The position numbers and the translations under genes were made by a program. The notes below the pieces were generated by a model, which made no database searches, had not been told where the DNA came from, and worked only from the letters and a program-made list of their open reading frames with translations. From the NCBI RefSeq assembly GCF_011397635.1, contig NC_064769.1:17811207-17875206 (forward strand): a stretch of DNA of 64,000 nucleotides, given 5' to 3'. Below, piece by piece: positions 41,305 through 47,300 of the stretch (positions within the stretch are counted from its first letter, which is position 1; each line of letters opens with the position of its first letter). Source of the stretch: Epinephelus fuscoguttatus (lineage: Eukaryota; Chordata; Actinopteri; Perciformes; Serranidae).

Positions 41305-44300
41305 CTGGAAAGAAGAAAACAATGTGTTTGTGTTGTTTAAATTATAATATACAATTGATGTGAGCCACAGCTTAAAAAGGGCAACATGACATCCTCTTTT
41401 GACAGCCTACTGATGAGGAGAGGAAGAGGGCGACTGCATCCTGACCTGAATACATTCAGTGTCAGTGCCCTCTGATCTAAACTAACCCAATGTATAGTCT
41501 GAGAGAGAGAAGTCTTACTCTTAGTTCAACACCCAGAGTCAGCTGTATACAACACAAATTAACTGCAGGGTTGCTGCTGGCTTGTCAGTTAAAATGCACA
41601 TAGACAAATCTGTGAATATTTGACAGGAAGAAGGCAGGAAGTTGGTTTTGAAGGAGCAATTTGTAGGATTTAGTGGCATCTCATGGTGAACATTGTAGAT
41701 TGCAACCAGCTAAAATCTCTCCCATATACCAAACATAAGTTCACTGTTCAGGTTTTTATCGAGAGCCGAATTATCTGCAGAGGTGTCCTCCTTTCCAAAA
41801 TAAATGGAAGTGATTAAAACAATCAAAAACACTGACTAAAGCAGCTTCATATTACAAATCAGTGTGTCTGCAACCCTGTTTGGCTCATCGCAGACAGGCT
41901 GTGAGGGCAGCACCTGCTAATTTGTGCTCACCTATTTGCTCTGATACGTTAAGATCCAGATGTTAAGGAGGTTTTCAACAAGAGCTTAATCGTCCACAGA
42001 GGTCTCTTCCTCTCCAAAACAAACGGACAAGGTGATTTTAAGTGGGTAAAACACTGAATAAAGCAGCGTCACGTAAAAAAATGGTAGTGTTTTTCTGCTG
42101 CCAACTATGGTGGCCAATCAAAATGTAAGAATGTGAATGGCCCTGTGTAGAGCCACTGTTTGGTTTGTCCATTCTGGGCAACTGTAGAAGGATGGTGGTA
42201 CATTATGGTGGACTCCGTGGACAAGGACCCACTTTCTGTGTAAATATAACAGCTCATTCTAAGGTAACGAAAACAAGATGATTCTTATTTTCAGGTGATT
42301 ATAGACTAAAGAAAATATACTACATATCCCACTAAATCCTACACACTGGATCTTTAACATCAGGCCTTTAATGTGGACAGTCTTCTGTATTGTATGTATA
42401 GTTTGAGTCGGCATTGTTCTCAGTTCAAACCCAGAGTGGATTGTGGATGAGTGGCTGAAGTGATCAGACTCATAATATACAAAGGAAAGAAAAAACTCAA
42501 GAACAAGAAAGTTGCCGTGTGTTTGTATATCCGTTATTGTTAACTAAACATGCATTTTATCTCAGGATGTCTTGAAATTTTCTTCACCCCTTCTTCGTCC
42601 TGCAATGAATGAGTGCACCGGCTTTCTACTGCGCCACAGCGCCGCGGAAGCGGTTGGGAGGTGTATTGCACATTGGTATTACACCTCCCAACCGCTTTTC
42701 CGAGATAAAATGCATGTTTATTTAACAATAACGGATATACAAACACACGGCAACCCCCGTACACCTTCCTAACATCTGTGCCTATGAGGTGAGTACATTA
42801 CATGTTTGATTTGAAAGTTTATGGAGACGTGAATCGGTCTAGACCGGGAACCCCCACACGAAAAACAGGGTCGTTTTCAAGACGTTCATGCAATGTCTTG
42901 GTCCAAGGCTAAAACTGACTAAGCCAGTCACCTGTGTGCAAGACAGCAGCTGTTAGTGTGTAAAGGCAGATTTCAAACGGCTGTCAAAAATTCAGTTAAT
43001 AAGGCAAAAATCTGAAAATACACAAATTACATCTAGACAGCATGGAGATGTTGGTAATTTGTTTTTAACAATGATTTATTGGCTCCATAAGTGAAAAACT
43101 GATGTATAAAAATGCCATTTTTGCATTGACTCCAATTGTTCGTATGAGAGTGAAATTCAAAATGCTGTAAAAAATTCAGTATTTGAGATAAAATTCTGAT
43201 ATTTTCCAAACATCATCTACCATGACTCCAAAATTTTGTCATTTTTTTAATGAACATTGAAAATGTATTTAGTAAGAATTTGCAAGTATATGTTTACAAT
43301 ACCATTTACAGTCAAACATTTTGATGCACTGTAGGCTCAATTTTCAATAAATCAAAAATCTGTGTGGATCGTTTGTGTAGGACAGTCTGAAGATGCTCTG
43401 TAGCAAGTTTGGTGTCAATTGAGCAAAAATTGTGGGAGGAGATAGGTTTAATAAGTTTTACAGTTTTTGAAAAAACAGAGTGATGGACTTCATAATTTGC
43501 AATAGGTATAAATATACAAAAGTTTCTTCAGTATTGGTCTACAGTTTGGTGAAAGTTGCAAATCTGTAGCACATATGGTTGATTTGTTGTGAATTTTCAA
43601 ATTTTTGAACTTTAGAGGCTTGCTGTAGCGCCACCATCAGGACTATTGGCCTGTTTTTGCAGCTGAGGCAATCTGGCATGGGACTGGACCTTTGTGCAAA
43701 GTTTGGTGATTTTTTGCGCATGGGAAGTATGATTTCCTCGGAAGAAGAAGAAGAAGAAGAAGAACATGCAGAAAAACAATAGGGTCCTGGCAGCTAGGCT
43801 GCCCGGCCACTAATTAAGAGTGGGGTTGCTGCTGGCTTGTCAGTTAACATGTACTCAGGTAAATCTGTATATATTTGCCAGGAAGCAATCAGTTAGTTGG
43901 TTGTAACCAGTCTGTTTATTAGCTGACTATTTGTTGACACTTTTAAATTTCATCACACTCACAAACTGCACATGATAAATAGAGATCATGCGTTCACTTG
44001 GTCTATCTGATACAAAGGAGCCTTTGTTAGTGTTGGTAAAACAAACCCCTTTCTCAATTTCAGGGGATGTCTCAATGTAAATATGAGTAAATTAATCAAT
44101 GTCAATATTCTGTGAGTTCTCAAACTGACTGCAAATACGGTTGATGTCATTCTGCAGCCAACCCTGTTTCAGCCCTTGCGTGCTACAGACTGTGTGTACT
44201 GTATTTACCTGCACTCCCTCAGCAGTGACTGCTGAGCAGGCCTGGACCTGCCACATGCGATCCCGGATAGTGTGCAGATTGAGACTTTCTGCCAGCTCAG

Positions 44301-47300
44301 ACGCTGGGGTGGCTGTCATCAGGTCCTAAATCCTACACACTGGATCTTTAACATCAGGCCTTTAATGTGGACAGTCTTCTGTATTGTATGTATAGTTTGA
44401 GTCGGCATTGTTCTCAGTTCAAACCCAGAGTGGATTGTGGATGAGTGGCTGAAGTGATCAGACTCATAATATACAAAGGAAAGAAAAAACTCAAGAACAA
44501 GAAAGTTGCCGTGTGTTTGTATATCCGTTATTGTTAACTAAACATGCATTTTATCTCAGGATGTCTTGAAATTTTCTTCACCCCTTCTTCGTCCTGCAAT
44601 GAATGAGTGCACCGGCTTTCTACTGCGCCACAGCGCCGCGGAAGCGGTTGGGAGGTGTATTGCACATTGGTATTACACCTCCCAACCGCTTTTCCGAGAT
44701 AAAATGCATGTTTATTTAACAATAACGGATATACAAACACACGGCAACCCCCGTACACCTTCCTAACATCTGTGCCTATGAGGTGAGTACATTACATGTT
44801 TGATTTGAAAGTTTATGGAGACGTGAATCGGTCTAGACCGGGAACCCCCACACGAAAAACAGGGTCGTTTTCAAGACGTTCATGCAATGTCTTGGTCCAA
44901 GGCTAAAACTGACTAAGCCAGTCACCTGTGTGCAAGACAGCAGCTGTTAGTGTGTAAAGGCAGATTTCAAACGGCTGTCAAAAATTCAGTTATTAAGGCA
45001 AAAATCTGAAAATACACAAATTACATCTAGACAGCATGGAGATGTTGGTAATTTGTTTTTAACAATGATTTATTGGCTCCATAAGTGAAAAACTGATGTA
45101 TAAAAATGCCATTTTTGCATTGACTCCAATTGTTCGTATGAGAGCGAAATTCAAAATGCTGTAAAAAATTCAGTATTTGAGATAAAATTCTGATATTTTC
45201 CAAACATCATCTACCATGACTCCAAAATTTTGTCATTTTTTTAATGAACATTGAAAATGTATTTAGTAAGAATTTGCAAGTATACAATACCATTTACAGT
45301 CAAACATTTTGATGCACTGTAGGCTCAATTTTCAATAAATCAAAAATCTGTGTGGATCGTTTGTGTAGGACAGTCTGAAGATGCTCTGTAGCAAGTTTGG
45401 TGTCAATTGAGCAAAAATTGTGGGAGGAGATAGGTTTAATAAGTTTAACAGTTTTTGAAAAAAACAGAGTGATGGACTTCATAATTTGCAATAGGTATAA
45501 ATATACAAAAGTTTCTTCAGTATTGGTCTACAGTTTGGTGAAAGTTGCAAATCTGTAGCACATATGGTTGATTTGTTGTGAATTTTCAAATTTTTGAACT
45601 TTAGAGGCTTGCTGTAGCGCCACCATCAGGACTATTGGCCTGTTTTTGCAGCTGAGGCAATCTGGCATGGGACTGGACCTTTGTGCAAAGTTTGGTGATT
45701 TTTCGCGCATGGGAAGTATGATTTCCTCGGAAGAAGAAGAAGAAGAAGAAGAACATGCAGAAAAACAATAGGGTCCTGGCAGCTAGGCTGCCCGGCCCCT
45801 AATTAAGAGTGGGGTTGCTGCTGGCTTGTCAGTTAACATGTACTCAGGTAAATCTGTATATATTTGCCAGGAAGCAATCAGTTAGTTGGTTGTAACCAGT
45901 CTGTTTATTAGCTGACTATTTGTTGACACTTTTAAATTTCATCACACTCACAAACTGCACATGATAAATAGAGATCATGCGTTCACTTGGTCTATCTGAT
46001 ACAAAGGAGCCTTTGTTAGTGTTGGTAAAACAAACCCCTTTCTCAATTTCAGGGGATGTCTCAATGTAAATATGAGTAAATTAATCAATGTCAATATTCT
46101 GTGAGTTCTCAAACTGACTGCAAATACGGTTGATGTCATTCTGCAGCCAACCCTGTTTCAGCCCTTGCGTGCTACAGACTGTGTGTACTGTATTTACCTG
46201 CACTCCCTCAGCAGTGACTGCTGAGCAGGCCTGGACCTGCCACATGCGATCCCGGATAGTGTGCAGATTGAGACTTTCTGCCAGCTCAGACGCTGGGGTG
46301 GCTGTCATCAGGTCCTGCTTGTTGGCAAAGATTAGCAGTGGCACAGCAGCAAGCTTTTCCTCCTCAAGTAACTCAGCCAGCTCCTGCAGGAACACACACA
46401 CACACGAAGGTAACGAGAGACACGTGTGCACTGGCGGAGTCAGAAAACTAAATAGTATTGACTTTTTGGCTTTATTTACACCCAACAACATCAGAAAACA
46501 TGGTTAACATTAGAAATATTTGGACTGTAATTGACATCAGGGTGTCTACAGGTGTCAGACACTTAAATGTAATGCTTTTTAAGTCTGTTTTAAGATGATT
46601 TTTAACCAGATTTAAGACTTATTTTTGAACAAATTATCTTTTTCTTATTTAAGTAATGCAGGCAAGCATGAAGGTAAGTGGTATACATGTGCTCCCATGC
46701 AGAGGTAGTTTTATGTAGTTATTAGAATGAGTTAGGTTAATCTACATTTTGCCAACAGGTAAGTGCAAGTATAAAGTAAAAAGGCAGGATCAGGTTCAGT
46801 GTTTAAGATTTATATATCAGAAATGTGGACTTTCACATATAAGAGCTTGACTCAACTGACAAAGAGACACTTTGTAAGGACCTACAGACACCCTGGATAA
46901 GCTTTCAGTAGCTGTGTGTGACCATAAATCACACTACAAATATCTCATTATTTAAAGAAACTTTATCTCACCAGGCTTGTCTCTTCAAACCTCTTCCTGT
47001 CTGAGCTGTCAATCACATAGATCTGCAAACAACACAGTCAGATATTACCATAACAGTTCATAACATGTATGAAATACTGTGTCGTGAGAACTTACATTTG
47101 CGGATGTTGAATTTGCTTGATTCTGACTATTTTAACAATCAGGTTAGGCACATTAAGGAAAACCTACCAGTACATCTGTGTTCTCAAAATAATTCCTCCA
47201 GTAGGGGCGAATCTTGCGCTGACCTCCTATGTCCCAAACATTCAGCTTAAAGCCAGATGATTGAACGCTCTTTATATTGAAGCCCTGTTGAAAGACAACA

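Follow-up and report, generated by a model that had tools for sequence, protein, structure and literature searches.

Tandem duplications that affect genes have been described in several animals. PMC12776057 reports tandem copies in the threespine stickleback for which the likely origin is microhomology-mediated repair, with later unequal crossing over. In the MYH3C expansion of that report, the breakpoints lie inside genes, little sequence is shared at them (4–8 bp), and the copies are highly similar. In the grey horse, STX17 holds a short tandem copy of intron sequence, of variable copy number (PMC11362437). The locus discussed here resembles both and is found in another fish, Epinephelus fuscoguttatus. 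It lies in arl3, a minus-strand gene in the window, i.e., the whole stretch of 64,000 nucleotides that was analysed (C18:17811207-17875206). There, a segment running from intron 5 into exon 5 is present twice. We propose, with a probability of roughly 0.7, that one recent tandem duplication of 2.0 kb, non-homologous in mechanism, took place in arl3, and that it is probably neutral and possibly polymorphic.

The duplication is laid out as follows.

42333–44326, no strand assigned: left unit of the tandem duplication, 1994 bp, closing with a detached exon 5 fragment.
44327–46315, no strand assigned: right unit of the tandem duplication, 1989 bp, with its right end inside the intact exon 5.
44326–44327, no strand assigned: duplication junction, its position uncertain by 1–2 bases owing to a common CT.

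Self-alignment confirms the two head-to-tail units of 1994 and 1989 bases that an earlier note on this DNA had described. The units are direct and gapless and join at an exact junction, the arrangement of a non-homologous tandem duplication. They are 99.4% identical over 2 kb, far above chance. Both of the small indels in the earlier note were recovered, one of 6 bp (43289–43294) and one of 1 bp in an A run (43469), and its count of about six substitutions is corrected to five, at 42999, 43151, 43459, 43715, and 43809. The string spanning the junction occurs once in the window, at 44311–44343. Tandem Repeats Finder, the longest period of which is 500, returned no rows for 40000–48000.

The E. 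fuscoguttatus genome (1,046,998,120 bases in 26 contigs) was searched with the left unit. The complete unit was found at only two places, both of them here, among the best 40 of 1245 first-look candidates, a result that is strong but short of absolute. The part of the unit free of transposon sequence, 43810–44326, gave five matches in the genome: the two units, a partial copy immediately upstream at about 80%, and diverged exons on C20 (83%) and C9 (73%).

The breakpoints are best understood from the following features.

46198–46383, minus strand: intact arl3 exon 5, 186 nt or 62 codons, with a CAG acceptor and a GTAAAT donor.
44209–44326, minus strand: detached 3′ part of exon 5, 118 nt, the last 117 nt being 39 in-frame codons, with the donor retained and the native acceptor gone.
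41263–41304, minus strand: coding part of arl3 exon 6 up to and including the bases shown, starting at 41304.
41648–42357, no strand assigned: old dispersed repeat with terminal inverted repeats and TTGA/TTAA ends, identified by genome search, its ends read from the sequence.

The right end of the duplication, bp 46315, falls within exon 5, so the fragment holds 118 of the 186 nt, about two-thirds. That the duplication cuts exon 5 had been noticed earlier, although it was placed within intron 5 as a whole. Likewise, the 3′ part of exon 5 was credited to each unit; in the left unit it is the detached fragment, and in the right unit the bases belong to the intact exon.

The left breakpoint cuts the dispersed repeat 21 bases before its right end (25 with TTAA counted). 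The right breakpoint is in unique exon sequence that lacks that repeat. The two breakpoints share only the 2 bp CT, and the longest match between their 400-bp flanks is 10 bp, which is at the level of chance (E value up to 1). The exonic position of the right breakpoint and the lack of a shared repeat argue against recombination between repeats; they fit end joining or template switching primed by microhomology.

A series of events may account for the structure. A break or a stalled replication fork within the transposon-filled intron would have been connected with a site 2 kb distant through end joining or microhomology-primed template switching. A strong hairpin within the unit is a plausible trigger. 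Folded as DNA, the segment 42500–42770 reaches −84.9 kcal/mol, whereas its shuffled versions average −26.4 (z −17.8), and the hairpin lies 178 bp from the left breakpoint. The resulting direct repeat can lose or gain units through unequal crossing over, as described for the stickleback myosin cluster (PMC12776057), and copy number may therefore differ between individuals.

The age of the duplication was approached through the transposon that it contains.

42440–43811 (approximate), no strand assigned: Helitron-like element, left-unit copy, with 73 bp at the 5′ end and about 900 bp at the 3′ end common to other genomic copies.
42511–42911 (approximate), no strand assigned: second repeat inside the Helitron-like element, left-unit copy, with 53-bp inverted arms (42511–42563 and 42702–42754) and the strong hairpin.

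Apart from the units themselves, the genome search scored 39 loci that carry the 3′ part of the element, and the 20 ranked highest among them served as outgroups for polarising the differences. The left unit is derived at 42999 (T in 20/20 outgroups), 43151 (C in 18/20), and 43809 (C in 18/20), and probably at 43715 (C in 16/20). The right unit is derived at 43459 (T in 20/20) and by the 6-bp deletion, the bases of which all 20 outgroups retain, two columns showing one point difference each. For the A-run indel, the direction is ambiguous: the extra A of the right unit is found in 16 of 20 outgroups, with a gap in three and a G in one. Since derived states occur on each unit, the copies changed independently of each other.

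The earlier note listed a very recent event among its options. Five substitutions in about 1990 bases, together with mutations private to each copy, bear this out. The Jukes–Cantor distance is 0.0025, which corresponds to 0.13–0.63 million years if rates between 1e-8 and 2e-9 per site per year are assumed. The two units mismatch the 20-copy majority at 25 of 911 and 22 of 906 positions. Judged from these alignments, divergence since the duplication would be about one-tenth of that since the insertion when the element alone is taken as the base, or about one-twentieth when the whole unit is, with a large error given only five substitutions. One might suppose instead that the differences were imported from other copies of the element, through gene conversion or mis-mapped polishing reads. 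This is unsupported: 42999, 43459, and the 6-bp deletion alter bases kept in all 20 copies. The left-unit states at 43151, 43715, and 43809 are found in two, four, and one of the 20 copies, respectively, and a donor copy is possible for these three.

Three observations weigh against a single recent non-homologous duplication. A 2-bp microhomology fits chance and is fairly often expected; the two shared bases neither discriminate end joining from template switching nor surpass chance. The differences are restricted to 811 of the 1994 bases (p about 0.02, in a test picked post hoc), which plain divergence does not predict. This clustering may be chance or some conversion at the unit ends. Finally, the divergence between the units is of the size expected between alleles.

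The last point leads to the strongest rival, a false or haplotypic duplication, in which the assembler set two alleles of a single-copy 2-kb stretch in series or a gap filler left an overlap untrimmed. We consider this less likely than a real duplication. Changes on both copies, at allele-like divergence, are what it predicts, and assemblies often break in dispersed repeats such as the one that holds the left breakpoint. Published assemblies do hold false duplications, including false exon gains, sometimes through incorrect gap filling, and the heterotype false duplications described in PMC9516828 likewise consist of adjacent near-identical copies with allele-level differences. As set out there, however, such copies usually, though not obligatorily, have an assembly gap between them, and here there is none: the window has zero N bases, as have all the loci fetched in this work (L001–L057). 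The right breakpoint, in unique exon sequence, also speaks against an assembly error, and a homopolymer accounts for only one of the seven differences, which is unlike raw sequencing error. Furthermore, a second long match within 10 kb was found at none of the 39 other scored element loci (upper 95% limit about 7%), and thus near tandem copies of the element are not widespread. On the sequence alone, a real duplication, segregating or fixed, is the more probable reading.

An older duplication, the units of which have been kept similar by gene conversion, was also among the options of the earlier note, and it appears improbable. The first 666 and the last 517 bases of the units are identical and all seven differences lie between, within 42999–43809, as conversion at the ends might produce. 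The clustering is weak, as noted above, and it is all that favours this option. The polarised differences are independent changes in each copy, and no divergent patch is found outside the middle. Unequal crossing over between dispersed repeats at both breakpoints can be rejected as the origin, being extremely improbable: the left breakpoint does lie in such a repeat, but the right one is in an exon without it, and homology is limited to the 2 bp at the breakpoints and the chance match of at most 10 bp in the flanks.

If a non-homologous duplication did take place, its consequences for arl3 are probably slight. The intact exon 5 sits on the transcription-upstream side of the fragment, and therefore normal splicing of exon 5 to exon 6 is still possible. 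The fragment is probably skipped because it has no normal acceptor. Thus, the ARL3 protein is probably unaffected, and the duplication probably neutral. An AG is created exactly across the junction, which would open the fragment in frame. Its use is unlikely because the 21 bases before it are only 43% pyrimidine, compared with 60% and 85% over the 20 bases that precede the acceptor AGs of exons 5 and 6. Judged by this base composition, the fragment is an unlikely candidate for a normal exon. A latent in-frame exon would nevertheless be conceivable: with the junction AG and the retained donor, 39 codons of the ARL3 C-terminal region would be spliced a second time into transcripts of carriers of a polymorphic allele, a very improbable outcome.

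In the arl3 gene of the window, intron 5 spans about 4.9 kb. In an arl3 paralog on C20 (L057, C20:28105735-28111234), exons 5 and 6 are near each other. There, the exon 5 match stops at 2618 and the match bearing exon 6 stops at 2752, which indicates that intron 5 of the paralog is short. By comparison with it, the long intron 5 of arl3 may have grown through insertion and duplication.

The Helitron-like element fills much of the unit, and its middle is taken by the second repeat. The Helitron-like end reported earlier for each unit is there, as part of this larger element, and the reported foldback MITE is likewise a foldback within the longer second repeat (44505–44905 in the right unit). 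The halves of the foldback repeat appear in an inverted arrangement in many other genomic copies. Helitrons begin with TC, end with CTRR after a short hairpin, and insert between A and T. Aligned copies of the element end with CTAAT, a GGCAGC/GCTGCC stem was recognised by eye, and the empty site (see below) agrees with an A/T insertion. The 5′ piece starts at the same point, unit position 107–109, in 14 of 20 fetched loci, and no TC was found within 10 bases of 42440. Because the 5′ TC was not seen, we do not class the element as a Helitron, although its 3′ end fits.

The intron also holds an older duplicate.

41490–41647, no strand assigned: older local intron duplicate without the Helitron-like element (empty site), identified by alignment and genome search.

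This segment aligns to 42394–42440 joined with 43809–43903, i.e., to the two flanks of the Helitron-like element. Its right part is 80% identical across 95 bp, and its left part scores 19, compared with a maximum of 16 in 300 base shuffles. The genome search with 43810–44326 listed no further copies of the right part, and the segment therefore appears to have been duplicated locally rather than to be a dispersed repeat. Its right end adjoins the TTAA-flanked repeat. Since the element is missing from it, this duplication most likely preceded the Helitron-like insertion and preserved its empty site. Intron 5 would then have been duplicated at least twice, at widely separate times.

The stretch containing the TTAA-flanked repeat gave 6580 first-look candidates. 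Other copies are 70–81% identical in the main rows and 68–94% in shorter pieces. Among 19 loci of the repeat, 15 have a 3′ match, 12 of these ending in TTAA, and 15 have a 5′ match, 12 of these starting with TTAA; the search pattern itself contained TTAA, and some 5′ matches may come from other copies. The left end reads TTGA at the arl3 locus. TTAA is the target of piggyBac-type transposons, and a non-autonomous repeat of that type is a possible reading. Breakage by the transposase of the repeat is not favoured as a cause of the duplication, as the main copies are only 70–81% identical and the break is not at the end of the repeat but 21 bases within it. Elsewhere in the window, 22238–23105 is a reverse-orientation copy of the repeat with internal repeats of its own, and 17431–18530 is a cluster of diverged direct repeats, 69–81% identical.

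The literature on an arl3 tandem duplication in a teleost intron yielded nothing relevant. If real, the duplication offers a clean snapshot of a newly born partial-exon tandem duplication, its breakpoints resolved to the base and its mutations polarised; an older duplication and several repeats were already present in the intron. It would be of an ordinary kind, leaving views on genomes and on ARL3 unchanged, and is useful for testing how young duplications can be distinguished from haplotypic errors of assembly. As described in the reports cited, the known systems differ from it in scale and in consequence. The STX17 duplication is 4.6 kb long and has enhancer activity and a phenotype, and the arl3 duplication shows no sign of function. 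The MYH3C unit is 17.6 kb long, includes a full gene copy, and comes with population data and expression effects; the arl3 unit is 2 kb, includes a partial exon, and is known from one sequence. A further parallel is provided by the segregating tandem duplications of Drosophila yakuba and D. simulans (PMC4503668, PMC5460883), which are documented by population data where arl3 has a single sequence, and which, like the arl3 duplication, are recent and affect genes.
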